From positions 1 to 29,510 of IMG/VR virus record IMGVR_UViG_3300033148_002827: a DNA stretch of 29,510 bases; one strand, written 5' to 3'. Every line of letters begins with the position of its first letter. The first letter of the stretch is position 1. Source of the DNA: a virus. Positions 3,580 through 29,510 of the stretch are shown here, in pieces. Made by a program: the position numbers and the translations under genes. The notes below the pieces were generated by a model. It had not been told where the DNA came from, did no database searches, and saw nothing but the letters and a program-made list of their open reading frames with translations.

Positions 3580-4400
3580 TTTGTTTCTGTATTACTTTTA
3601 ACTTTACGCTTCTCACTTAGAAGCGTTCGGATAATTTTATTGATATTTTTTGTCCCTTTATTAGAGGGCTTAACCTTTCGCTTATCCGAGCATTCGGTCA
3701 CGACCTTTTTTTGTTCTTTGATTTTAAATAATTTATCTCTAAATTGTTTTAAAATAATTCCTTTGCCAATTTCTTTTTCTCCGTCAAGGACTTTAATACT
3801 TTTTTCTTTCTTATCTACAAATAGAATAAACTCTTTTTCTTTAACTTCTTTCACATCTCCTTTTAGATTTTTATGGTCAGGCTTTAATACTTTTTCTATT
3901 ACTGACATATCAAGTCCCTTTTGTTTGGCCAAAGCATATGCATTAGCCGGAACAGGAACACAAGATATTTCTAATAGCTGATTATTAACCATTCTTGTAT
4001 TCTTTTTCTTATCAATTACAATCTCACCCATCATAAATCCAACTGAGAATGCATTCATAAACTTTTCTTTATAAAGATTGTAAATTGTTTTAATGAAATC
4101 TCCATAGATCCCCACTCCTTCGTCAACTGCAAATTTTATTTTGCCTGCAAGATTTCCTTTTTCGTCTAATCCTATTTTAACAACTTTCCCAACAACTATG
4201 TTCGGATCTGAACTAAACATATTGTTGTGAGCAAATAATACAACTGGGTTCTTTTTAAAGTTTTTTAAATCCCAAGTTTCTTGATCAATGGGCGGATCTC
4301 CTGATCTATCAATGTCAGAGGTTGAAAATATCCCCTCTATTGTTTGATCATTATCATTTGACTTTGTTATTTGAAATATTGTGTCTTTTTTCTTAAACAT
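3576..4400 (-). CDS. Prohead maturation protease, S78 family
   Basis: The 274-residue protein shows the catalytic signature of HK97 gp4-type proteases: His58 in VVLFAHN, Ser119 in MNAFSVGF and Glu144 in QLLEISCVPVPAN. It would cleave the delta domains of the capsid precursor inside the prohead. The core ends near residue 165. The remaining hundred or so residues are a Lys-rich, low-complexity tail (several KKEK and RKVK stretches) with no recognisable fold, and the DNA that encodes its end can form several hairpins. The gene follows the portal by 19 bases and overlaps capsid by 4 bases. The long basic tail might bind scaffold or DNA, or be read-through sequence that is tolerated (inference). 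Confidence 0.87.
   Translation of the reverse strand: MFKKKDTIFQITKSNDNDQTIEGIFSTSDIDRSGDPPIDQETWDLKNFKKNPVVLFAHNNMFSSDPNIVVGKVVKIGLDEKGNLAGKIKFAVDEGVGIYGDFIKTIYNLYKEKFMNAFSVGFMMGEIVIDKKKNTRMVNNQLLEISCVPVPANAYALAKQKGLDMSVIEKVLKPDHKNLKGDVKEVKEKEFILFVDKKEKSIKVLDGEKEIGKGIILKQFRDKLFKIKEQKKVVTECSDKRKVKPSNKGTKNINKIIRTLLSEKRKVKSNTETK
3606..3697 (-). other. Cluster of hairpins in the 3' end of the protease gene
   Basis: Within 92 bases lie a perfect 8-bp stem (acgcttct at 3606-3613, agaagcgt at 3619-3626), an enclosing pair cggataa/ttatccg (3628-3634, 3682-3688), a small ccct/aggg hairpin (3654-3668) and a ccga/tcgg hairpin (3686-3697). The last overlaps the enclosing arm, so they cannot all form together. 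The DNA also encodes the low-complexity protease tail. It may be a translational coupling structure ahead of the capsid start at 3579 or a small inserted element. Confidence 0.4.
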
Positions 4401-6637: not shown

Positions 6638-6876
6638 TATGTTCTTTCAATTTCCATTTTATCTTTCTTATAAATATTTTGCATCTTATTATATTTTTCT
6701 TTTCTATCTCCATAATATTTTAAAATCTTTTTTCTGTTCTGCTTGTAATAATCTTTGTAATAATCCCTATGACTTTTATCCCAATATCTCCTGCAACAAT
6801 TCGGGCAACAAAACTTTTGTAGACCGTGTTTAACATTAAATATATTTGAACAATTAGGACAGGTTTTTGTAATCAT
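6634..6876 (-). CDS. Small Cys-rich (zinc ribbon) basic protein
   Basis: The product begins MITKTCPNCSNIF and continues with a second Cys cluster (FCCPNCCRRYWDKS), followed by a Tyr/Lys-rich helix. Two CPxC knuckles of this kind normally bind one zinc ion. I chose the ATG at 6876 because the ATG 36 bases further upstream (6912) lies deeper inside the glycosyltransferase gene and would add residues that look like out-of-frame sequence. From 6876 the overlap with the upstream gene is 23 bases. The layout of a short zinc ribbon then a basic tail recalls nucleic-acid-binding accessory proteins and small fragments of endonucleases. No catalytic residues are visible and the function is unknown. Its stop codon is embedded in the head-operon promoter. 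Confidence 0.6.
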   Translation of the reverse strand: MITKTCPNCSNIFNVKHGLQKFCCPNCCRRYWDKSHRDYYKDYYKQNRKKILKYYGDRKEKYNKMQNIYKKDKMEIERTY

Positions 6877-7681
6877 AGTTAAAATCCATTTTTGGGGACT
6901 GCTCTGTCCCATTACTAAAATCGTATAGCCAGTTTCTTGTGCCTTCTGGTGTTAAAATCTTTTCATCGTCTTCAATGTGGCCACACCATACACTCCAATC
7001 AATTAAAGTTTTCCAATTATTCTGGCCTATGTCATACCAAGTCCAAATATCCGGGCCACACCAACCATTTAATGACCACCTCAGCTTTATTTTCTTGATC
7101 GCCTCTTGTCTATATGCCCAACAATAATATCCACCACCATCTATTTGCTGTATTCCTGTTTTTTTTGCACCCAATCCGACTTTTGTCCTTATTTTTCCCC
7201 TTATACATAAATCTAATAACCAAGCACCACAAGGCCCGTGTTCTCCTGCCTTTCTTAATGCTTCTACTCCTTGAATACAACCTATCTCCTTATCACTCTT
7301 AATTCTCCTATAAAGTTTTTTAAATGCATTCTTAGGTATTATAGTATCGTCCTCAACCATAAAGACAATCTCGCTAAAATCTAAATGTGTATTAATCTTT
7401 TTCAGGTTCTCAATTATCCTTTCCCATTTTTCCGGGTAATCCTCAACTCTGTTTGTATAAACAGGTGTCCTGTTTGTCTTAATCATATTCGCTGATAACC
7501 ATTTTTGACCGTGATAATCAATCCAATTCTTACAATAGTCAATCAATAATCTATCTTGTGTATCTAAATATAAGAGTAAATATAAATCCTTGCGTGGTAT
7601 ATCCGCTTTAGCAATAGCTTTCAAGCACTTTGCTATTGGATATCGTCTGCTAATTACTATAACAAAACTATCTATATTCAT
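6854..7681 (-). CDS. Glycosyltransferase, GT-A-like, 275 aa
   Basis: The protein starts with a beta strand of nucleotide-sugar-enzyme type (SFVIVISRRYPIAKCLKAI) and has an acidic DxD-like motif, VEDDTIIP (residues 109-116), the usual metal and sugar-nucleotide site of GT-A enzymes. Conserved-looking aromatic segments follow (GYYCWAYRQEA, NGWCGPDIWTWYDIGQ, WSVWCGHIED). It would transfer a sugar from an activated donor to an unknown acceptor in the cytoplasm. The start ATG overlaps the stop of the larger glycosyltransferase gene (ATGA), so the two are translationally coupled and probably act in one pathway. No DNA-base hypermodification enzyme is visible nearby, which makes virion protein or host surface glycan more likely acceptors than phage DNA (inference). 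Confidence 0.75.
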   Translation of the reverse strand: MNIDSFVIVISRRYPIAKCLKAIAKADIPRKDLYLLLYLDTQDRLLIDYCKNWIDYHGQKWLSANMIKTNRTPVYTNRVEDYPEKWERIIENLKKINTHLDFSEIVFMVEDDTIIPKNAFKKLYRRIKSDKEIGCIQGVEALRKAGEHGPCGAWLLDLCIRGKIRTKVGLGAKKTGIQQIDGGGYYCWAYRQEAIKKIKLRWSLNGWCGPDIWTWYDIGQNNWKTLIDWSVWCGHIEDDEKILTPEGTRNWLYDFSNGTEQSPKMDFNYDYKNLS

Positions 7682-10155
7682 TTTAAATATTTTATAATCT
7701 CTTTAACTCTCTCTTGGTATGTGTGATACTTTAATGTTCTTTTCTGCCCGGCCCGGGCAATTTTCTCTCTCTCCTTATCGTGTTCTAAATAATAATCTAT
7801 TTTTTCAATCATTTCTCTCATCGTTGAATAAACTATTATTTCCTTGTCGGCCTCAAACAACTCGTCTAAATAAGGAACTTTCTGTGTTATCAATAATGCA
7901 CCACAAGCTGTCGCCTCAAACATTCTCATATTTATATCATTGCCTGCCGATTGGTTTGCCACTATTTTACATTTGTTATAGAACTCTGCCATTTGCTCAA
8001 AAAATATTCCTTCTTGTTTTGAAAATCTATCACCGTATTTATCTTTCAAGTATTTAACAAACTTTACTCGTGATGTGTATGCTTCCTTTCCAACAAATCC
8101 TATATCTATTTCTCTCTTTAATTTCATATCATTAAAGATTTCCTTATCTATCCCGGAAGGCAAATAAGATGATTTATCTGGATCAAAGTATTCTTCGCAA
8201 CTCTTTTGGCTATAAAATATATGATCTGCGCCACTTTCTATTGCCCTCCTGAATGTTGATCGGTTCTCTATAATTATTAAACTCCCATCTATTGGATCTA
8301 TTGTTCCTAAATCGTTCGCATAACAAATTCTCTTTCCGCCATATCCTATTTTAAATCCTTTTCTGATCAACTGCTTTTCTAATTGCTTTGCTATCCCATA
8401 TTCTGTTTTTGAACTGCCTACAAATAAAACTCTATCGTCCCGGTTTGTGTTTGCTAGGTCAAAATACTTATCTACTTGTTTTTTAATGTTAAAATGTTCT
8501 AATGCGTATTGTCTATTAAACTCTCCCATTGACTTATCATATTTTTTAAATTCCTCAACAATATCATCAATGCTCAAATCTAAATTATATCTCCGGCCTG
8601 AAAAATTGTTTTTTAATATCTCATTGATATTGCCCTCTGTTACTATTCCGTCACCCTTGCTCTCTTTCATATAATGCCGTTTATCAAATACTATAACTGC
8701 CCGGCCACAGGCCATTGCCTCATATGCTCCTCTGCCTAAACTAACAACTAAATCAACCTCATTCATTCTTTTTTCTAAATCCCAAACATCTCTGGCCTTC
8801 TTAAATTCTATTCCTAATTTATCACAAGCTATTTCTATTCTCTCGTTAGCGTCGTTAAAATCTTTGTCTAAATCTTTACATATTGAAAGAACGCTTTTTA
8901 GTTTCTTATGTATTGGTTTTGTTGGTTTAAATCTGTCACAATCAATTCCATTATGAATTATCTTTGCGTCAAATCCTTTGCTTAATAAATAATCCTTAAC
9001 TTCTTTTGATATTCCTACATAAAAATCTGCTCCCTCTTTTGGTTGTTCTAACTTTGGATATATCCCGTGTGAAGTAAAAACTTTTACCCCGTTTGTGTCT
9101 TTTAAATAATCCAAACAGGTATTGTGATTTATAAAAATATAATCGTATTCTTTGCGCAACTTGTTTTCGCTTTTTGGTGTTATTGTAAAAAATGGTTCTG
9201 ATAACCGGCCGGGTTCAAATGTAAAAATATCTACCTTATATCCTCTGCACTCTAATTCTTTTCCAAATGTATAAGTAAATGTTTCTGTTCCACTAAGGTT
9301 TTCAAGAAACTGGTTTGCCAAAAGAACTCTCTTTATTGGCTTGTCAAATCCTAATGCCTTTTTTAATCTTTTATCTGGCCATAACTTTTGAAAGTAATCT
9401 TTATTTTCTAATACTTTACTAAACCTGCCTTCTGATTGTGAATGGTAATGAACTATTGGTTCTCCTTTAATATAATCCATAGTCATTCCCATTTCTCTTG
9501 CTCTTAATCCTAAATCTAAATCCTCTGCGCCGTTCTCAAATGTTTCGTCAAATCCGCCTAACTTCTCCCAGGCCTTCTTTTTTGCTCTAAATAAAAATCC
9601 CGAGGGTATTTGAACATCTCTTTGATTTTCCATTAAGTTTGACAATAAATTTCTACTCCAACCAATACCCTTTACAATTCTTTTTCCTTCATTTGATAAT
9701 ACTTCTGAGAAGCCAACCAAATCTGCTTTATTCTCGCAGGCCTCAATAATCTGGCCTATATCCGGCTCTATGTCATCGTTCATAAAAATCAAATTATCTG
9801 TCTTTGCTAACTTTGCGCCCAGATTACAATTCCGAGCAAAACTGCCACCGGCTATAACAAAAACATTAAATATATCTAATGGTATTGCCTCTAATGTATT
9901 TTTTAAAAGATCGTGCCTATTGTGGTGTGGTATTATAATATCTGCTAATTTACCTTTAATCTCTGGCTTTATATATATTTTCTTTGTATTTTTTATTTGT
10001 GATTTTCTTTGTTTAGATTTTATATTAACTGACATTATTATCTCTGATCCAATTTCTTTTAATCCATCTATTTTTGTTTCACTGATGATAATCTCTCCGG
10101 GATTATAAGTTCTGCCATTAATATCTATTCTCTTTATTGCGTGGTATCTATACAT
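7678..10155 (-). CDS. Three-domain glycosyltransferase (GT2 + GT4-like + CgeB-like)
   Basis: This 825-residue protein joins three glycosyltransferase units. Residues 1-45 form a small beta module (INGRTYNPGEII). About 65-270 is a GT2 domain with ADIIIPHHNRHDLLKNTLEA, the DxD-like FMNDDIEPD and LGGFDETFENGAEDLDLGLR. About 275-590 is GT-B type (LSGTETFTYTFGKELECRGY, HNGIDCDRFKP, GRGAYEAMACGRAVIVFD). About 595-825 is a second GT-B unit of the CgeB/GT1_2 kind (VLFVGSSKTEYGIAKQLE, LPSGIDKEIF, MRMFEATACGALLIT). Such a chain could build a short oligosaccharide on one acceptor. The gene lies between TerL and portal, inside the virion cluster, and is coupled to a fourth transferase. Glycosylation of capsid or tail protein is a reasonable inference; host surface modification is the main alternative. 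Confidence 0.85.
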   Translation of the reverse strand: MYRYHAIKRIDINGRTYNPGEIIISETKIDGLKEIGSEIIMSVNIKSKQRKSQIKNTKKIYIKPEIKGKLADIIIPHHNRHDLLKNTLEAIPLDIFNVFVIAGGSFARNCNLGAKLAKTDNLIFMNDDIEPDIGQIIEACENKADLVGFSEVLSNEGKRIVKGIGWSRNLLSNLMENQRDVQIPSGFLFRAKKKAWEKLGGFDETFENGAEDLDLGLRAREMGMTMDYIKGEPIVHYHSQSEGRFSKVLENKDYFQKLWPDKRLKKALGFDKPIKRVLLANQFLENLSGTETFTYTFGKELECRGYKVDIFTFEPGRLSEPFFTITPKSENKLRKEYDYIFINHNTCLDYLKDTNGVKVFTSHGIYPKLEQPKEGADFYVGISKEVKDYLLSKGFDAKIIHNGIDCDRFKPTKPIHKKLKSVLSICKDLDKDFNDANERIEIACDKLGIEFKKARDVWDLEKRMNEVDLVVSLGRGAYEAMACGRAVIVFDKRHYMKESKGDGIVTEGNINEILKNNFSGRRYNLDLSIDDIVEEFKKYDKSMGEFNRQYALEHFNIKKQVDKYFDLANTNRDDRVLFVGSSKTEYGIAKQLEKQLIRKGFKIGYGGKRICYANDLGTIDPIDGSLIIIENRSTFRRAIESGADHIFYSQKSCEEYFDPDKSSYLPSGIDKEIFNDMKLKREIDIGFVGKEAYTSRVKFVKYLKDKYGDRFSKQEGIFFEQMAEFYNKCKIVANQSAGNDINMRMFEATACGALLITQKVPYLDELFEADKEIIVYSTMREMIEKIDYYLEHDKEREKIARAGQKRTLKYHTYQERVKEIIKYLK

Positions 10156-10305: not shown

Positions 10306-11844
10306 TTAAAGTTGTATAATACCGCCCTCACTATCGTCATCATCGTCGTCGCCAAATAGCCAAGTAATGTCTGGCTCTCCTACTTGTTGAATGCCTGCTA
10401 TTCCTATACAAAGCGCATCTGCCATATCGTCATACTTTCCTCTTGGTAATGATAATAATTCATTTATAAAGTCCTGTCTGTTCTCTATTCCATTTTTAAT
10501 AAAGACCTTTCTATTGGCAAACAAAGGTGGCAACATCTCATTAAACTTCTCAATTTTATTCTTTGTTGTTTGAACTCCCTTGATCGGCAAGCCGGTATTT
10601 GTTATTAATGTTTTAACACTATCATATTGAAATGCGTTTTGTTCTATTCCTATTCTTAATGCGTCCGGGTATAATTTGCTACCTGCTATAATCTCTTTTA
10701 ATCTGTCATCAAACTTAATACGCTTTCTAACTATTTTATCTATAAAGATATCTCCCTTGCGACTTCTATAAAAATGTATTCCACCAGTATAATCTCCTTT
10801 GTCAGGATCTTTGCCTACTGATAAATCCCAACCCCAATAATTTGGTATTATAATTTTCTTTGTCTTGTCCTCTTGTAATGACCAGCAATCATTTGGCAAT
10901 TCATCGTATCCCTGAATATCCTCTGTTTTAACTATCTCCCCACTTATATTTACAGGCATACAGCGGTATTCTTTATTAAACCATTTGTCACTTCCTGTTA
11001 AAATAATACTCTCTTGCTTTTTGGCCATTAACTTATTCCACGGCCATTTTTCAGGGTAAAGTGAAATCTGTTTTGCTTCATCTACAACTGCATCATATCT
11101 CTTATGAATCCAGTGCCTCTCTCCTGCCATTTCAATACTATTCCAATCTACACTATATAAATCTCCATCTCTTTGCAGTGTTCCCACAATAACTATTTTT
11201 GTGTCTGGTTCAGCCATAGGTATAATTTCGGTTGACATCCTTTCAAGTGTTTTTCTATTATAATCCTCACTATAAATAACCTGACTGTCAATAACATCAT
11301 CTAATATAATCTTTTTGGGATGACCACCCCTAACCTTACTGCCAAATCCTGCAACTTCTATTGTTGATCCATTGCTAAATCTAACCTCCCTCCTACTATC
11401 AATATCTGCACCCCTTAATAAATGTCTATATCTTGGTACTTTTGCCCACTTTTTAATAAAATCTAATCTTTTGATTGCTAATCCATCACTTGCGCTTAAA
11501 ATAATAATACTCATATCAGGATCACTCCTACAATCCTCTAATGGAGAACATTCACTAAAAAAGAAACTTTTTAAATGATCCCTTGGCGCTTCTATAACTA
11601 AATTACAATCTGTTCGCAAAAGCGCATTCCATTCCCTATGTAAATCCCCAAGTTCCCAGTTATTCTTTATTGCTAATCTGTTATGTGCATAAATTTCTTG
11701 ATCTATTAAATAACATAAATCTCTTTCATAAATAAATTCTTTACTATCCTGATTGTTTATCTCCTTGTTCTTTATTTGCTCTGTTATCTGGGAGAATTGT
11801 TTTAAGTAGTTCGGCAAATTGTTGCTTGGTTTTTTCGTCTGCAT
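10306..11844 (-). CDS. terL: Terminase large subunit
   Basis: The 512-residue protein is the DNA-packaging motor. The ATPase half has a degenerate Walker A (EAPRDHLKSF, residues 85-94), an SIIILSAS strand, Walker B with catalytic acid (KKIILDDVID, about 177-186) and a coupling motif strand (TKIVIVGTLQ). The C-terminal RNase H-like nuclease has its three acidic sites in YWGWDLSVGKDPDKGD, LRIGIEQNAFQ and GKYDDMADALCIG. A very acidic tail (GDDDDDDSEGG) ends the protein. The Walker A lacks the usual GKS/T and instead reads R-D-H-L-K-S, a variant seen in related phage terminases. The start at 11844 lies 101 bases inside the TerS gene, an unusually long overlap, so a later non-ATG start remains possible. 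Confidence 0.93.
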   Translation of the reverse strand: MQTKKPSNNLPNYLKQFSQITEQIKNKEINNQDSKEFIYERDLCYLIDQEIYAHNRLAIKNNWELGDLHREWNALLRTDCNLVIEAPRDHLKSFFFSECSPLEDCRSDPDMSIIILSASDGLAIKRLDFIKKWAKVPRYRHLLRGADIDSRREVRFSNGSTIEVAGFGSKVRGGHPKKIILDDVIDSQVIYSEDYNRKTLERMSTEIIPMAEPDTKIVIVGTLQRDGDLYSVDWNSIEMAGERHWIHKRYDAVVDEAKQISLYPEKWPWNKLMAKKQESIILTGSDKWFNKEYRCMPVNISGEIVKTEDIQGYDELPNDCWSLQEDKTKKIIIPNYWGWDLSVGKDPDKGDYTGGIHFYRSRKGDIFIDKIVRKRIKFDDRLKEIIAGSKLYPDALRIGIEQNAFQYDSVKTLITNTGLPIKGVQTTKNKIEKFNEMLPPLFANRKVFIKNGIENRQDFINELLSLPRGKYDDMADALCIGIAGIQQVGEPDITWLFGDDDDDDSEGGIIQL

Positions 11845-12286
11845 TTTCTAATAACTTATTTAATTTATTATCTCTCTCTAATGAAGGTTGCTCTAATATC
11901 ATTCCCTCTTTCCAGCGCTTAATATATTGAAGCCATAACTTTACTTCTGCCGCTTTTCCGTCTGTGAGTATTGTCCTGTATAGCGCGGCGATAACGTCCG
12001 GCGTCTTATCTGCTCCCCACTTTGCTAATTGAATATCTACATCTTTTTCAAACTCCTTTCTCTTTTTCCAATCTACTAATGTGTCTGGTGATAATTCAAA
12101 TTCTTTGGCAAAATCTTTTTCTGTCCTAAATCCATATTCCTCTTGCCTAAATACAGAAGGCATAGTATAAAACTTAACAAATGCTTTGTAATCTGCTTTC
12201 CTATATGGTTTTTCTGGCGGTTTTTTTATAGGTGTTTTATTGGACTTTACAGGACTTTCAGGTTTAATTGTTTTTGGTTCTGTCAT
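11744..12286 (-). CDS. terS: Terminase small subunit, HTH type
   Basis: The 180-residue protein has a disordered, Pro/Lys-rich N-terminus (residues 1-28), then YRKADYKAFVKFYTMPS and a helix-turn-helix (TEKDFAKEFELSPDTLVDWKKR, about 57-78) that would bind the packaging site. A helical oligomerisation region follows (VIAALYRTILTDGKAAEVKLWLQYIKRW), and the C-terminus is charged. The fold plan and its place directly before TerL match the phBC6A51-type small terminases. The gene overlaps the upstream NUMOD3-HNH gene by 23 bases and TerL by 101 bases. Terminase genes are frequent targets of homing endonucleases, and the HNH gene next door fits that. Confidence 0.8.
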   Translation of the reverse strand: MTEPKTIKPESPVKSNKTPIKKPPEKPYRKADYKAFVKFYTMPSVFRQEEYGFRTEKDFAKEFELSPDTLVDWKKRKEFEKDVDIQLAKWGADKTPDVIAALYRTILTDGKAAEVKLWLQYIKRWKEGMILEQPSLERDNKLNKLLENADEKTKQQFAELLKTILPDNRANKEQGDKQSG

Positions 12287-12857
12287 AATTATATTTTATT
12301 ATCTTAGTATATTTTTTAGAATTACAACTTTTACATAATGGCTGTATATTCTCTATATTGTCTGAACCACCTTTGCTTAATGGGATTATATGGTCTTCAG
12401 TAAGTTTAATCTTTGGTTCTGATTTTTTACAACAAGGACAAGTCCAATTATATTGTGCTTTTAGATTTTCCCATTCTCCTAAAGTATGTGATCCATCGGC
12501 ATTTTTCTTTAATGCCCTTCTTCTTTTAACAAGAAATCTAATTCTCTCACAATTTTCTTCTCTCCATTTATTACCTCTCCCTCTAAATGCATTTTTATTT
12601 CCCTTTAATGCTTTACTAACTTTCTTATTTCTTTCGGTAAAATCTTTTTCTTGCCATTCTTTTAACTTTCGTTTTCTTAAAATCTTTCTAACATCTAATC
12701 TTTTACAAGGATTTTTATCTCCCTTTTTCTGTTCACTTAATTTTTTTCTGACTTCTGGTCTTTTAGCTGGATTATTCTTTCCTTTCATTCTTTCACTCAT
12801 TTTTTCTTTTGTTTTATCTGAAAGTTTTCTGCCTAACATATGTTTGCCAGTCATCAT
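12264..12857 (-). CDS. HNH homing endonuclease with NUMOD3 repeats
   Basis: The 197-residue protein has two kinds of region. Residues 8-95 are basic and contain NUMOD3-type DNA-recognition repeats (GRKLSDKTKEKMSERMKGKNNP, then KKLSEQKKGDKNP and a weaker KALKGNKNAFRG). Residues 127-182 form an HNH nuclease with CPCC (140-143), the catalytic DH pair (155-156, in TEDHIIPLSKGG), an Asn in DNIENIQPLC and a second CKSC pair (175-178) that binds the structural zinc. It would nick or cut a specific site to promote its own spread. It sits immediately before TerS with a 23-base overlap and appears free-standing. I see no clear intron ends, though a short reading frame at about 12882-12850 upstream deserves a look as a displaced 5' exon. 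Confidence 0.88.
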   Translation of the reverse strand: MMTGKHMLGRKLSDKTKEKMSERMKGKNNPAKRPEVRKKLSEQKKGDKNPCKRLDVRKILRKRKLKEWQEKDFTERNKKVSKALKGNKNAFRGRGNKWREENCERIRFLVKRRRALKKNADGSHTLGEWENLKAQYNWTCPCCKKSEPKIKLTEDHIIPLSKGGSDNIENIQPLCKSCNSKKYTKIIKYNYDRTKNN

Positions 12858-13337: not shown

Positions 13338-13632
13338 TTTTTACCTCATTTTTAATTATTACTCCTAATGATTTTTCTAATTCTTGTTTAACTTTTTCTC
13401 TTTCGACTTTAAATCTCTCAATATCTTTTTCTAAGCTTACTATTTCCTCTTTCCCTTTAATAATTGCATTTTGCATCATATCAATCGCTTGATCCAATGA
13501 AGCCAGATTAACTTCGCGCGTCTTTGTTTCTGTTTCTATGATATTAACAATAACTTCCATTGCCTTACTTGGCTCTTTTTTTAATACATCTCCTTTTGGT
13601 TTGATTACTTTGTAGCTTGTTTTTTCAATCAT
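13318..13632 (-). CDS. Coiled-coil protein, 104 aa
   Basis: The second half of the protein (about residues 42-90) is a long heptad-like coiled coil (ASLDQAIDMMQNAIIKGKEE followed by Lys/Glu-rich repeats). The first part is a short beta-type region (SYKVIKPKGDVL, AMEVIVNIIETET). It is likely a small oligomer. The start overlaps the stop of the zinc-protein gene upstream by 4 bases and its own end overlaps the next gene, so all three are translationally linked. The function is unknown. Confidence 0.65.
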   Translation of the reverse strand: MIEKTSYKVIKPKGDVLKKEPSKAMEVIVNIIETETKTREVNLASLDQAIDMMQNAIIKGKEEIVSLEKDIERFKVEREKVKQELEKSLGVIIKNEVKNENIKK

Positions 13633-18504: not shown

Positions 18505-19248
18505 TTATTTCTTTAATTTTTTTAATTCTTTTAATTCGTCCTCCCGGCGCTTAATGTCAAGCGCTCCCAAAAAGGCCTTGCGATCTTTTAGATATTCTTT
18601 TTTAGTAATAGTGTGAACCTCAAACTCGCCATCCTCTTTCCCAAATCTGATAATCATTCCGTAATCAATTTTCTCTCCCATTTCCTCAACAGCATTCCAG
18701 TATGCGGCCAATTGATAATAATGATCATTATAAATCCCCTTACTGCTCTTAAAATCTATTATCACTTTGTCTTTGCCTATCTTTGCAATCGCGTCAAGCG
18801 TCCCGCAATACTTATATTTCTTTGAATAAATCAATCTCTCGCTATCTGTAAATTTTGCCTTATGTTCTTTTTGCCATTTCAAAAATGCTGTTATCCCGTT
18901 AACAATATTCTCATCGTCTGGTAGTTCCGGCTTTTCTCCCTTGATCCAATACTCAATCCACTCGTGAATTGCTGTCCCAATATCTCGGGCCTTTTTTGAT
19001 ATACTACGATATTCTCTTTTAGCCTGTAAAATTGTTTCCTCTCCAACAACAAATCCGTCATCAACTTTTTCAATCAAATACTCTGCCATACATTTTACTG
19101 CCCAACCCATTAACTGCGGACTTTTATCTATAATCCCTGTGACTCCTGTTACACTATATTTTACTTTCTTTCCATTTACAAAATACTTATGTTTCTCTGG
19201 ATCAAATTCTAATATAATTTTTTTGTTATAAAGTTCTATTTTTCTCAT
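18505..19248 (-). CDS. PD-(D/E)XK nuclease, RecB/phage exonuclease type
   Basis: The 247-residue protein shows the motif order of the RecB-like branch: His95 in GTAIHEWIEYW, Asp152 in KYCGTLDAIA, the catalytic DxK pair Asp165-Lys167 in VIIDFKSSKG, and Gln179/Tyr183 in YYQLAAYWNA. The C-terminus is Lys-rich (DIKRREDELKELKKLKK). Such nucleases resect double-strand ends so that an annealing protein can load. It lies directly downstream of the Rad52-like gene, forming a two-component recombinase like lambda Exo/Beta or RecE/RecT. It probably acts in genome end processing, recombination or concatemer formation. Confidence 0.88.
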   Translation of the reverse strand: MRKIELYNKKIILEFDPEKHKYFVNGKKVKYSVTGVTGIIDKSPQLMGWAVKCMAEYLIEKVDDGFVVGEETILQAKREYRSISKKARDIGTAIHEWIEYWIKGEKPELPDDENIVNGITAFLKWQKEHKAKFTDSERLIYSKKYKYCGTLDAIAKIGKDKVIIDFKSSKGIYNDHYYQLAAYWNAVEEMGEKIDYGMIIRFGKEDGEFEVHTITKKEYLKDRKAFLGALDIKRREDELKELKKLKK

Positions 19249-19294
19249 AATCTATTTTTTAGAGGCAGTTTTTTGACATACCCGGGTCTATAAA

Positions 19295-20047
19295 TTATTT
19301 AACTTCTTTGTTTAGTAAAGCCATAATCAATACTCCGGCGTGTTTTTCTGTAATCTTATCTAAACTACCTCTTAATATTATTCCTGTCCTCTTTGCTAAA
19401 TCGGCGCGTTTCTGTGTATCTGTTTTTCCTTTTAACATTCCTTTTAATTCCTCAACTTTATTATTTGGCTCTGGCTCTTTGGTTTCTTTTACAACTTCGC
19501 CTTCAATAACTCCTTCATTCGTCGGTGGAATAAATGCCTTATCTGCTTTTTGAATATCTTTGAACTCGTTGCCTGCATATACATCACTTGCTATTCCTAA
19601 TTCGCTTGCGCATTTTTTAAGTGCATCAGTTGAGGCCGCTTTTAAATCGTTGCCATAATCTAATGCTTCTTTTGTATCTCTTTTAAATTTCATATCGGCC
19701 CGGCCAAATTGCTCTTTAACAATAATCGGTTTATTCTGTTTATCTTTGATTGTCAATCTACCTAATACCCAAACTAATTTACCCTCTTGTCCGTGTTCTT
19801 TAATCTCAAAATCCCAACGCCAGCCAAAACAATAATTCAAAACCTTTTTTACATATGCTCCTGTTACATAATTCCATTTGCCACCACCTTTTGCCGGCCT
19901 TTGATAAATATGGTTTGCCGGTGTCTTTTGAAGTATAAATAATAACTGATCTTGATTAAGTGGTGCAGGCACTTTTGTTTGAACTCTTACTATTGCCGTT
20001 GTCTTTTTCTTTGTTATTACCTTTTTTTTATTTGTTTTCTTTTTCAT
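19295..20047 (-). CDS. Single-strand annealing protein, Rad52-like
   Basis: The 250-residue protein has a basic start, then a core from about residue 30 to 165 that matches Rad52/Sak-type annealing proteins: YQRPAKGGGKWNYVTGAYVK, LNYCFGWRWDFEI, WVLGRLTI and the signature GNDLKAASTDALKKCASELG followed by IASDVY. An acidic linker (EGEVVKETKEPEPN) and a short helical C-terminal domain follow. It would coat resected single strands and anneal them to homologous DNA. The partner nuclease is the next gene. The start is preceded by AGAGGT, a rare weak Shine-Dalgarno sequence, and by a long imperfect hairpin in the leader that may control translation. Confidence 0.88.
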   Translation of the reverse strand: MKKKTNKKKVITKKKTTAIVRVQTKVPAPLNQDQLLFILQKTPANHIYQRPAKGGGKWNYVTGAYVKKVLNYCFGWRWDFEIKEHGQEGKLVWVLGRLTIKDKQNKPIIVKEQFGRADMKFKRDTKEALDYGNDLKAASTDALKKCASELGIASDVYAGNEFKDIQKADKAFIPPTNEGVIEGEVVKETKEPEPNNKVEELKGMLKGKTDTQKRADLAKRTGIILRGSLDKITEKHAGVLIMALLNKEVK

Positions 20048-20060
20048 TTTTTACCTCTAT

Positions 20061-20135
20061 CTTGTGAGAGGACAATATGGGACGTCCACAAATGGAGAAA
20101 ATAACAAAATCCCATTTATATTATCCTCTCGCAAG
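20061..20135 (-). promoter_or_regulatory. Long inverted repeat in the annealing-gene leader
   Basis: The arms cttgtgagaggacaatatgg (20061-20080, continuing ga) and tcccatttatattatcctct (20110-20129, continuing cgcaag) are complementary over some 20 pairs, with one G-U or mismatch at two places and a four-base insertion in the second arm. The loop holds the palindrome ggacgtcc (20080-20087). It ends 14 bases before the ATG of the Rad52-like gene and abuts the AGAGGT ribosome site. Autoregulation or an mRNA stability element are plausible. Confidence 0.55.
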
Positions 20136-20167
20136 AGTTATTTTCTTATTAAATCCGACCTTTTATT

Positions 20168-20452
20168 TTAACGATTTTCTTTTGACCATTCTCTTGCCCT
20201 TGCTATTGCTGTTTTCTTTTTAGCAAAACCTACTCTTTTAACAATTTTCCATTGTTTCTTTGTTTTGATATACCTGTAAATCCCTGCCACGTATCTTGGA
20301 CTTCCCTTATGGTTTATCTTTTTACAAGTATAGAAGTATCTATCTTTATTTTCGTTTTCAAAATACCTATAACTTGGGCTACTGAACATTTGGCCAAATA
20401 CTCTGTTGATTACATCTAATGCGTTTTTATGTGCTTGTTCATCAATAGTCAT
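20168..20452 (-). CDS. Unknown basic protein, 94 aa
   Basis: I do not recognise this protein. It has a helical start (TIDEQAHKNALDVINRVFGQ), then a beta-rich region with aromatic residues (YRYFENENKDRYFYTCKK, YVAGIYRYIKTKKQWKIV) and a basic C-terminal helix (KKKTAIARAREWSKEN). The middle resembles a small AP2- or Arc-like DNA-binding beta sheet, but this is only an impression. It is the first full gene downstream of the DnaA-box promoter at 20545-20573, so it leads the recombination operon. A regulatory or DNA-binding role would fit that place. Confidence 0.6.
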   Translation of the reverse strand: MTIDEQAHKNALDVINRVFGQMFSSPSYRYFENENKDRYFYTCKKINHKGSPRYVAGIYRYIKTKKQWKIVKRVGFAKKKTAIARAREWSKENR

Positions 20453-20544: not shown

Positions 20545-20573
20545 ATTATACTTTATTTTTAATGACTTGGCAA
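20545..20573 (-). promoter_or_regulatory. Sigma-70 promoter of the recombination operon
   Basis: The minus strand has TTGCCA (20573-20568), a 17-base spacer and a perfect TATAAT (20550-20545). Transcription should start near 20538. The 17-bp extended DnaA box ends a few bases upstream of the -35 box, placing its core at about -53 to -45, a position typical of an activator site. It would drive the 94-aa gene, the annealing protein, the nuclease and the small early genes. Confidence 0.8.
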
Positions 20574-20577
20574 TGCG

Positions 20578-20594
20578 TAACCTGTGGATAACTT
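20578..20594 (-). promoter_or_regulatory. Extended DnaA box, copy 1
   Basis: The minus strand reads AAGTTATCCACAGGTTA. The core TTATCCACA is a perfect strong DnaA box, and the flanking bases are shared with two other copies. It lies just upstream of the promoter at 20545-20573. Confidence 0.85.
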
Positions 20595-21574: not shown

Positions 21575-22393
21575 TTATTCAAATTTAATAACTAATTCTT
21601 TTTCGTCACCGACAAACTCTCGCCAATCTCCATTTTGAATTACCCATTGCTTGCCGTTCTTTTTTACAACTGGATCTCCATTAAAATAAACTTTGCGCTT
21701 CTTTGGTTTTTCAAATCCGTTTGATTTTTTCCACTTATCAATCGGGCTATCTACAAAGTCTGTTAATCCACGATGTAAAAATTTATCCAAAGACCATTGA
21801 TATGTCCAAAAATATTCCGGGCCAGCTAATACCATTTTATATTTTCTTATGGCCAAAAATATCTGATCCTTTTTATAATCTTTTAATGCTGATTTAATCT
21901 TTGTTTTTATTTTATCAGTCAATTTAGAATGAACTATTATTTTTTGTTTATTCCAATATTCAAAAATATACTCTATATTTTTAGTATAATTATTTATAGT
22001 ATTATTATTCGTTCGTTCTGGTGAACAGCTCTGTTCATTTTCGTGAACAGCTCTGTTTGTTTCTATGAATAGCTCGTCAATTTTACTATTCAATTTAATG
22101 AATAGTTTTTGATTTCCTTGTCTAAAAGTTTCAATATAACCCTCTTGTTCAATTTTTTTTATTCTTGGAGTTAAAGCACCTGAACTCTTAATTTTGATCA
22201 ATGGCATATCCCCTAAAAGTGTTTGATAGTTTATCCAAGTCCAAATACCTTTTTCATTCTTAATTCTTTGGCTTTCTATTTTTTCATTTTTGCTATTACA
22301 ATAATAATAAATATAATCAATAATAGCACAATCTATTAAATCAAGATTTGTTTTTGATAAAACTAATTGATTTATGTTAATATTATATTTCAT
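21575..22393 (-). CDS. Winged-helix replication initiator, DnaD/O-like
   Basis: The 272-residue protein has two parts. The first (about 1-105) reads as a winged-helix domain (KYNININQLVLSKTNLDLID, YQTLLGDMPLIKIKSSGALT, RIKKIEQEGYIETFRQGNQK). The second (about 140-215) has IFEYWNKQKIIVHSKLTDKI, IFLAIRKYKMVLAGPEYFWT and WSLDKFLHRGLTDFVD, the pattern of phage replisome organisers that combine an HTH with a DnaD-like helical domain. The linker (NRAVHENEQSCSPERTNNN) is encoded by iteron-like repeats, as in lambda O, which binds iterons inside its own gene. It probably opens the phage origin and loads helicase. No primase or helicase gene is visible, so the host's would be used. Confidence 0.7.
   Translation of the reverse strand: MKYNININQLVLSKTNLDLIDCAIIDYIYYYCNSKNEKIESQRIKNEKGIWTWINYQTLLGDMPLIKIKSSGALTPRIKKIEQEGYIETFRQGNQKLFIKLNSKIDELFIETNRAVHENEQSCSPERTNNNTINNYTKNIEYIFEYWNKQKIIVHSKLTDKIKTKIKSALKDYKKDQIFLAIRKYKMVLAGPEYFWTYQWSLDKFLHRGLTDFVDSPIDKWKKSNGFEKPKKRKVYFNGDPVVKKNGKQWVIQNGDWREFVGDEKELVIKFE
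21961..22010. other. AT-rich stretch beside the iterons (possible unwinding element)
   Basis: About 50 bases made almost wholly of A and T (atactctatatttttagtat and on to attattattc) lie directly next to the iteron-like repeats. Origins of the lambda O type have such an easily melted stretch next to the initiator sites. The region also encodes the linker of the initiator protein. Confidence 0.45.
22022..22106. repeat. Iteron-like repeats, probable phage origin
   Basis: Copies begin at 22022, 22044 and 22066, exactly 22 bp apart: TGAACAGctCTGTTCA (a perfect 7-2-7 palindrome), TGAACAGctCTGTTtg and TGAATAGctcgtcaat. An inverted pair actattca/tgaatagt (22085-22092, 22099-22106) adds further TGAATAG half-sites. 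A period of about two helix turns puts all copies on one face of the DNA. They lie inside the initiator gene next to an AT-rich stretch, as in lambda ori. Confidence 0.65.
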
Positions 22394-23033
22394 TTAAATA
22401 TTTTTTAATTCTATTAATATCATCTTTATTCAATTTAAACCATTCTCCTCTTATTTGTTTTTCATTAAACATTTTTAATAATTTTATTTCTATTCCAATA
22501 TAATCATTTACTTTTTTTTGAATTATAATTTTTATTCCAAAAGGATTTTCTGTCTTATAAGTTTTAATTCTACTTTGAATATTTTTTGCCCGTCCTATCT
22601 TATAAAGATTTTTACTTTTTAAAAGATAAATCCAACCATTTTCAATTTTTTTATTATTAATTTTTTTAGATTTTTCCCTACATTCTCTTTCTTCTTTATC
22701 TGATATTTTTTTTTGTTTATTTATATAAGCAACAAACCAATTATAAAAAGGTATTAAAAATTTTCTTTTCCCCGTATAAAGCCATTTAATAAATAAATTT
22801 TCTCCTTTTAATCCAAAAATTGATGGAAAACTCATTATTCCTTTTTTATATCTTTTATCATCGCTAAAACTTCCAGTCAAATTACACATTCCACTACAAT
22901 ATCCTTCCCACCAATCTTCCCATTTAAAACCATTTTTAATAAAAATCTCTTTCCATTGTGAATCGTGATGAGAAATACTTCCAATAGATTTTAATCTCCA
23001 TCTAAAATTTTTAATTTTATTTTCCGTTTCCAT
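22383..23033 (-). CDS. T5orf172/GIY-YIG-type nuclease, 216 aa
   Basis: The C-terminal 85 residues read GWIYLLKSKNLYKIGRAKNI, then QSRIKTYKTENPFGIKIIIQ, IGIEIKLLKMFNEKQIRGEW and FKLNKDDINRIKKYL. This is the T5orf172 (MUG113) branch of the GIY-YIG fold: a degenerate IY..Y-IG motif, a conserved Arg (SRIK), and the Glu that binds metal (GIEIKLL). The first 130 residues are unrelated, rich in Trp and basic (WKEDWWEGYCSG-like stretches, NLFIKWLYTGKRKFLIPFYN). It could be a homing or defence-type nuclease. The gene precedes the initiator with an 11-base overlap. Confidence 0.75.
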   Translation of the reverse strand: METENKIKNFRWRLKSIGSISHHDSQWKEIFIKNGFKWEDWWEGYCSGMCNLTGSFSDDKRYKKGIMSFPSIFGLKGENLFIKWLYTGKRKFLIPFYNWFVAYINKQKKISDKEERECREKSKKINNKKIENGWIYLLKSKNLYKIGRAKNIQSRIKTYKTENPFGIKIIIQKKVNDYIGIEIKLLKMFNEKQIRGEWFKLNKDDINRIKKYLNEI

Positions 23034-23160
23034 ATTTTATAAATAAAAAAGTCTTAACTGAAAGGACGAAGGACACAGCTACGAATAACTGCCAACCATT
23101 TCTGATTGTTTCGCCCTTTCGGTTAAGATTTCTATTCGTATTTTTGTCCTTATTTCCCAT
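23017..23160 (-). CDS. Possible small membrane protein, 47 aa
   Basis: A frame from ATG 23160 to TAA 23017-23019 encodes a basic start (MGNKDKNTNRNLNRKGETIR) followed by a hydrophobic segment (WQLFVAVSFVLSVKTFLFI). Its end overlaps the T5orf172 gene start by 17 bases. The start coincides with the predicted transcription start of the promoter at 23167-23172, so the message would be leaderless. The same DNA forms interleaved inverted repeats, so the real product may be an RNA, a protein, or both. Confidence 0.4.
   Translation of the reverse strand: MGNKDKNTNRNLNRKGETIRNGWQLFVAVSFVLSVKTFLFIKYGNGK
23053..23151 (-). ncRNA. Interleaved inverted repeats, possible pseudoknot RNA
   Basis: Stem A pairs cttaactgaaaggacgaa (23053-23070) with ttcgccctttcggttaag (23110-23127): 16 Watson-Crick pairs, one G-U and one mismatch. 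Stem B pairs aaggac and tacgaata (23069-23074, 23080-23087) with tattcgta and gtcctt (23133-23140, 23146-23151). The arms alternate A-B-A-B, a pseudoknot layout. On the minus strand stem A is followed by ACTTTTTTATTT, like an intrinsic terminator. This could be a short RNA of about 110 bases from the promoter upstream. Confidence 0.5.
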
Positions 23161-23166
23161 ACTTTT

Positions 23167-23172
23167 ATTATA
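23167..23172 (-). promoter_or_regulatory. -10 box of a DnaA-box promoter (copy 2)
   Basis: A perfect TATAAT lies 31 bases downstream of the second extended DnaA box. The -35 region (CTTTTT at a 17-base spacing) is poor, so the promoter would need an activator. Transcription would start near 23160, just before the interleaved repeats. Confidence 0.45.
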
Positions 23173-23197
23173 CGCTTTTTTAAAAATAAAAAAAGCC

Positions 23198-23434
23198 CTA
23201 ATCTGTGGATAACTTTTTCTGTCCTTTTTTCAATAATTTCCTTATTGTGGCGTGATCTCGTCTACCCAATAAAATTCCTGTTTCAGTTAAGGAAAGTCCT
23301 AAACTTTTTAATTCTAAAACTAAATCTACTCTGGCATCTATTATTTTTTTTCTACGGCCAGAACCTAATAATTCAAGAATACTAACTCCGTGTTTTTCAC
23401 AAATTGTTTGTATGATTGATAGTTCTTTTTTCAT
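23198..23434 (-). CDS. Stand-alone DnaA domain IV protein
   Basis: The 78-residue protein matches the C-terminal DNA-binding domain of DnaA (the replication initiator) without its ATPase. Residues 5-24 (LSIIQTICEKHGVSILELLG) are the first helices, SGRRKK resembles the basic loop, RVDLVLELKSLGLSLTETGI is the helix-turn-helix, and GRRDHATI (57-64) is the family signature that in DnaA reads GGRDHSTV and contacts the DnaA box. It would bind TTATCCACA sites. Such sites lie just upstream of this gene and across its stop codon (KKLSTD is encoded by one). It may regulate phage promoters or compete with host DnaA. TATAAT directly abuts the ATG, and the 12-base leader lacks a Shine-Dalgarno sequence. 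Confidence 0.85.
   Translation of the reverse strand: MKKELSIIQTICEKHGVSILELLGSGRRKKIIDARVDLVLELKSLGLSLTETGILLGRRDHATIRKLLKKGQKKLSTD
23199..23215 (-). promoter_or_regulatory. Extended DnaA box, copy 2
   Basis: The minus strand reads AAGTTATCCACAGATTA and overlaps the last codons and stop of the DnaA-domain gene. It matches copies 1 and 3 except for one A/G. The core is a perfect TTATCCACA, located 31 bases before a TATAAT. Confidence 0.85.
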
Positions 23435-23452: not shown

Positions 23453-23458
23453 ATAATA
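23453..23458 (-). promoter_or_regulatory. -10-like box of a DnaA-box promoter (copy 3)
   Basis: TATTAT lies 30 bases after the third extended DnaA box. The predicted start of transcription near 23446 gives a 12-base leader for the DnaA-domain gene. The -35 region is weak (TAGTTT at 17 bases). An alternative TATAAT at 23435-23440 touches the ATG and could not serve this gene. Confidence 0.35.
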
Positions 23459-23483
23459 AAAAAAGCAACCTCCAAAAACTACC

Positions 23484-23500
23484 TAACCTGTGGATAACTT
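23484..23500 (-). promoter_or_regulatory. Extended DnaA box, copy 3
   Basis: The minus strand reads AAGTTATCCACAGGTTA, identical to copy 1 across all 17 bases. It begins at the stop codon of the small membrane gene of the lysis cassette and precedes the DnaA-domain gene by 50 bases, suggesting autoregulation. Confidence 0.85.
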
Positions 23501-29285: not shown

Positions 29286-29510
29286 TCATCTATTTAGATA
29301 ACTATCTGTTTTTTTGTGGCATTCTTTACAAAGAGTTCTACCATTATCAATCGAAAATCTTAATTCGGGGTATTGAGCAAATGGTTTTATATGGTCTGCT
29401 TCTAAATTACCACCTCTCTTTCCACAAAATCTACAAGTATAATTATCTCTTTCAAATACTGCTTCACGCCATAATTTCATTTCAAGTGAATTTCTAATCT
29501 TAGCATTTAT
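29286..29510 (-). CDS. HNH endonuclease, N-terminus outside window
   Basis: The frame is open to the right edge: upstream of the ATG at 29480 it continues as [10 protein letters not shown], which fits the family, so the gene is probably partial. The visible 75 residues contain [20 protein letters not shown], the HNH histidine in EADHIKPF, an Asn in SIDNGRTLC and CKECHKK, the second zinc pair. It is a compact zinc-bound HNH nuclease of the mobile kind, frequent in phage tail and head operons. It stops 25 bases before the chaperone start. It is probably a homing nuclease, or a remnant. Confidence 0.82.

Follow-up and report, generated by a model that had tools for sequence, protein, structure and literature searches.

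The window, the whole stretch of DNA that was analysed, is a virus record of 29.5 kb (32% G+C) in which the minus strand holds nearly all plausible genes. One of these genes encodes a stand-alone DnaA domain IV protein, and it lies among DnaA boxes, promoters, a structured RNA and genes of replication and recombination, which are listed here in the direction of transcription.

23482..23500 (-): box 1, a copy of the 19-mer AAGTTATCCACAGGTTAGG upstream of the domain IV gene, with its DnaA box at 23489-23497
23453..23458 (-): -10 hexamer TATTAT of P1, the gene's own promoter, 30 nt past box 1; -35 poor (2/6)
23198..23434 (-): stand-alone DnaA domain IV protein gene (78 aa), characterized by PF08299, AlphaFold, Foldseek and dN/dS
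23197..23215 (-): box 2, AAGTTATCCACAGATTAGG, overlapping the gene's last codons and stop
23167..23172 (-): -10 hexamer TATAAT of P2, 31 nt past box 2; -35 poor (2/6)
23045..23160 (-): structured RNA that begins at P2 and is probably a small RNA or an attenuator, with a long stem and then a terminator-like T-run at 23050-23045
22383..23033 (-): GIY-YIG/T5orf172 nuclease gene (scores exceed the cut-offs of PF10544 and PF13455), lying after the RNA and before the replication gene
21575..22393 (-): probable replication initiation protein downstream of P2 (weak phrog_16167 match, E 0.0069)
20576..20594 (-): box 3, AAGTTATCCACAGGTTACG, the third 19-mer copy
20545..20573 (-): P3, TTGCCA-17-TATAAT, an 11/12 sigma-70 match with its -10 beginning 32 nt past box 3
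18505..20452 (-): genes behind P3, namely a 94-aa protein of unknown function, a Rad52-like annealing protein and an exonuclease
19295-20047 (-): Rad52-like annealing protein (PF04098 over cut-off)
18505-19248 (-): exonuclease (phrog_298)

The stand-alone domain IV protein

The 78-aa product carries the signature GRRDHATI and scores 36.7 bits against Pfam Bac_DnaA_C (PF08299), above the curated cut-off of 31.5, with a match that spans nearly the entire protein. No other DnaA domain (AAA+ domain III, domain I) was found in it, so that it does not qualify as a DnaA initiator, and full-length NCBIfam DnaA models touch it solely via the C-terminus (30.4 bits versus a cut-off of 343.9 bits). The AF2 model consists of five helices (mean pLDDT 91.4), and its top PDB matches in Foldseek, 3pvp and 1j1v (TMq 0.86-0.87, rmsd 1.3-1.4), are structures of DnaA domain IV in complex with box DNA; the predicted fold is that of DnaA domain IV. 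An earlier note on this DNA had described a lone DnaA domain IV without the ATPase, which is borne out, and had proposed comparing the predicted structure with DnaA domain IV, with which it agrees.

Residues of the protein were aligned with 32 Patescibacteria DnaA domain IVs. The equivalents of R399, R407, D433, H434 and T436 are retained (R399, D433, H434 and T436 being common to the window protein and the DnaA domain IV structures), whereas the T435 position is Ala and the Q408 position is Val, and domains I-III of DnaA are missing altogether. Thus, from the DnaA base-contact set R399/H434/T435 the window protein has the Arg and the His. In DnaA, the TTA part of the box is read by R399 through the minor groove and TnCACA by the helix from 434, and R399A and E. 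coli T435M show defective box binding (PMC5742627). The window protein appears equipped for DnaA-like DNA binding with an exact specificity that may differ; since two of the contact residues conserved in DnaA differ, its affinity for the consensus box should not be taken for granted.

No PHROG family matched the protein at E 0.1, no close relative was found among known phages, and a peptide-pattern search of GTDB genomes likewise gave no close relative. Relatives were located in two viral contigs only; the homologue in contig G006 has 58% protein identity and scores 39.6 bits against PF08299. Comparison of the two genes (dN 0.34, dS 1.17, dN/dS 0.29) indicates that the domain IV gene is maintained under purifying selection, and rules out a truncated dnaA pseudogene. 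The domain IV fold is already known to be common among predicted phage proteins, one group of which has a known role. It is frequent in the predicted phage proteins of BFVD, where those named 'Chromosomal replication initiator, DnaA C-terminal' share the fold and the small size (mostly 79-200 aa), but they are only 16-34% identical to the window protein and are given no roles or operators there. The earlier note was right that few phage regulators of this type have a described role, though the fold itself is common in predicted phage proteomes.

DnaA boxes, promoters and the genes behind them

The window contains three perfect copies of the DnaA box TTATCCACA (23489-23497, 23204-23212 and 20583-20591), every one on the minus (coding) strand, versus 0.29 expected; none of 300 first-order simulations reached three. 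No clear enrichment was seen for the looser TTWTNCACA (8 versus 4.5 expected, with 6 of 100 shuffles reaching 8), so the count was restricted to the three perfect boxes. Each of them is embedded in the 19-mer AAGTTATCCACAGGTTAGG, a repeat that exceeds the DnaA box in length and has three copies in the window at up to one mismatch, versus none in 300 simulated genomes. Box 1 lies 55 bp upstream of the domain IV gene, box 2 within its last codons (AAG TTA TCC ACA GAT TAG), and box 3 2.6 kb downstream. The earlier note had the gene flanked by boxes: the upstream box stands, but the supposed downstream box is inside the gene, and the third had been missed.

The three boxes are followed, after 30, 31 and 32 nt, by the hexamers TATTAT, TATAAT and TATAAT of P1, P2 and P3, respectively; by chance, 3.6% of positions have a -10 matching 5/6 or better in the 30-32 nt range. 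Because each 19-mer is placed in this way, the boxes are taken to be promoter elements, and the arrangement, with one box at the gene's own promoter, supports the control of phage promoters that had been suggested earlier. With start sites inferred from the -10 hexamers, the 19-bp putative operator would cover about -54 to -36.

The ~116-nt stretch from P2 has a folding z-score of -5.55 versus shuffles, and its structure has 34 pairs, 7 of them with compensatory changes (window versus G006 2159-2271); its 5' end is inferred from the P2 -10. The z-score and the compensatory pairs favour a structured RNA over a '47-aa ORF' behind P2, which was rejected as a gene. It may act as a small RNA, or else as an attenuator ahead of the replication gene. 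No Rfam family matched it at gathering score, and a covariance model recovered it only in G006 and a near-identical contig, apart from two weak matches. The stretches L334-L337 were rejected as relatives, for they have only a short RNA motif in common with it and a different structure. The RNA also contains invariant UACGAAUA/UAUUCGUA segments with a possible alternative pairing or pseudoknot. Elsewhere in the window, homing-endonuclease-like genes were recognized by eye at 983-1531, 12264-12857 and 29286-29480, besides the profile-matched gene at 22383-23033, and two glycosyltransferase-like genes, also by eye, at 6854-10155 in the portal-like to terminase interval.

Viral relatives and the proposed role of the protein

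The three-site layout of the window recurs in G006: one site (1835) is upstream of the gene, one (2098, AAGTTATCCGCAGGTTAGG, at the same position as box 2) overlaps the gene end and one (3675) is downstream, and a -10-like hexamer follows each box at about 31 nt (at 3675, TATAGT at 31 nt was read by eye, the script having picked another). As DnaA boxes, two of these three sites are poor, yet they keep AAGTTA....ACAG.TT.G. A strict protein-DNA covariation code, in which the His-to-Arg change of the G006 protein would go with A7 to G in the box, was rejected since the other two G006 sites have the A, and the two independent homologues found are too few to judge whether site and protein co-evolve. 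Contig G002 spans the same region without the domain IV gene and has box promoters at 10482, before the replication gene, and at 13385, before the Rad52-like gene; its apparent homologue of the window replication protein lies directly behind a box promoter. A weak or better match to the domain IV protein was found in one of 35 contigs with box promoters. Among the three contigs, the box promoter is more widespread than the domain IV gene, which looks like a later addition; host DnaA would accordingly have been the original reader (n = 3).

The interpretation that we favour, and hold to be fairly probable, is that the phage protein is a domain IV-only transcription regulator that binds the 19-bp DnaA-box operator at P1 (its own promoter), P2 (structured RNA and replication gene) and P3 (recombination genes). 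The anatomy on the DNA side is observed, and we infer the protein binding and the sign of regulation. The regulator is probably autoregulated and has its sites in common with host DnaA. Before the phage protein appears, host DnaA probably reads the same sites, as the gene-less relative retains box promoters; in early infection the phage protein would take over or modulate the DnaA-box promoters. Activation with positive feedback is, we think, likelier than repression, because the site adjoins the -35 element, so that sigma is within reach of a protein bound there, because P1 and P2 are almost without a -35 of their own, and because GafY, the published stand-alone domain IV protein, makes contact with RpoD and switches on its own operon.

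The window protein resembles Caulobacter GafY and the N-terminal half of Rhodobacter GafA in being a domain IV homologue without ATPase that belongs to a phage-like element. GafY and GafA activate the phage-like element and their own promoters, and GafY binds RpoD (PMC9632790, PMC11150451, PMC6363796); a candidate site is found by sequence at the window gene's own promoter. In contrast, GafY acts together with GafZ, its partner, and IHF, and its site is near -120 rather than at the -35 and is no DnaA box. A GafZ-like partner or fused sigma-like domain is absent from the 78 aa, and the next downstream gene is that of the GIY-YIG nuclease. Boxes also control promoters where host DnaA activates lambda replication transcription (PMC8203912) and at the dnaA and nrdAB promoters (PMC8203912, PMC11317965), but the reader there is full-length host DnaA, which in E. 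coli usually acts at double boxes with 2-3 bp between them, whereas the second half-site in the window is only TTA.

Repression is a tentative alternative of lower probability: the protein would fill the boxes, exclude host DnaA and shut the early promoters in a negative feedback. The operator geometry is the same for this reading, P3 with its 11/12 consensus needs no activator, boxes surround the -35 in host dnaA promoters, and DnaA is a known autorepressor elsewhere (PMC8203912); however, the 2/6 -35 hexamers at P1 and P2 would be odd targets for a repressor, and the precedents GafY and GafA are activators.

The loss of the contact residues T435 and Q408 (and of H434 also in G006) counts against a regulator that reads these boxes, and the box promoters of phages without the gene indicate that boxes need not be sites of the domain IV protein. 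Both observations, together with the occurrence of the same promoter class in host chromosomes, would suit boxes that only host DnaA uses, with a phage protein that has moved on to a different DNA site and whose gene lies between boxes by coincidence. This we regard as rather unlikely, since G006 keeps the three-site layout and conserves the longer motif where the box consensus is lost, as expected if the phage protein, not host DnaA, is the reader; the operator may then be read through other bases.

A block of oriC or of DnaA function that stops host replication, also suggested in the earlier note, is in principle within reach of a lone domain IV, which could cover boxes without initiating (established DnaA biology), but is highly improbable, as no sequence evidence for it was found here, G002 does without the gene, and HdaB, the one characterised example of a lone domain IV that was first linked to replication, was later shown to be GafY, the transcription activator of a prophage-like element (PMC9632790). 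A DnaA-type phage replication origin marked by the boxes and the protein is less probable still: a probable replication gene adjoins, but the boxes number just three, at intervals of 0.3 and 2.6 kb, with each at a promoter and no box cluster.

New with respect to known systems is the putative operator of the favoured regulator, a DnaA-box repeat fixed beside the -35 of early phage promoters and common with a host promoter class. If the proposal is true, the DNA-binding part of an initiator has been turned into an early phage gene switch whose sites host DnaA can also read, and the locus offers a small testable system for DnaA-type transcription control without ATP or oligomerisation; it would also point to a DnaA-box promoter class in Patescibacteria.

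Box promoters in Patescibacteria

A search for AGTTATCCRCAGGT-N5-7-TTGAC gave 36 viral and 67 genome stretches, many from Patescibacteria, and in 46 of the 67 genome stretches a -10 matching 4/6 or better follows at 16-18 nt, versus 8 of 80 in the control. The presence of a -10 and a control of the spacing between box and -35 were relied on instead of the CAGTT pattern because the latter is not a clean null, its inspected matches being tandem DnaA boxes. TTATCCACA-N8-10-TTGACA occurs in 39 of 287 Patescibacteria genomes, and the reversed control matched once. In G056, which was chosen for having a match and is not a random genome, 37 boxes lie 8-10 nt before TTGACA, versus 11 over 26 control spacings (15-40 nt). 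In four dnaA genes the gene's own promoter has the box/-35 design, and the -35 is followed by a second box. A literature search found no report of a DnaA-box promoter class in Patescibacteria.

The genome stretches with box promoters, together with matches of the window replication protein in two Patescibacteria genomes, give Patescibacteria as a lead to the host, unconfirmed by the window terminase, which had no match in 380 Patescibacteria genomes. A domain IV match is present in 179 of 192 Patescibacteria genomes, nearly always one, and almost all of those listed are full-length DnaA. It is conceivable, though doubtful, that a DnaA box beside the -35 is a general promoter element in some Patescibacteria and their phages, and that the phage domain IV mimic takes over this class, in its own promoters and possibly in those of the host.

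The box/-35 promoter design recurs in some Patescibacteria, such as G056 (L299-L318), G057 and L279-L282. Many Patescibacteria box promoters (L155, L171, L192, L201, L214 and others) have a palindrome, GTGAACGCTCGTTCAC, between the -35 and the -10, which probably adds a repressor operator to the DnaA box. The viral contigs L321 and L322 contain tandem AGTTATCCACAGGTTA repeats that resemble iteron or DnaA-box arrays.
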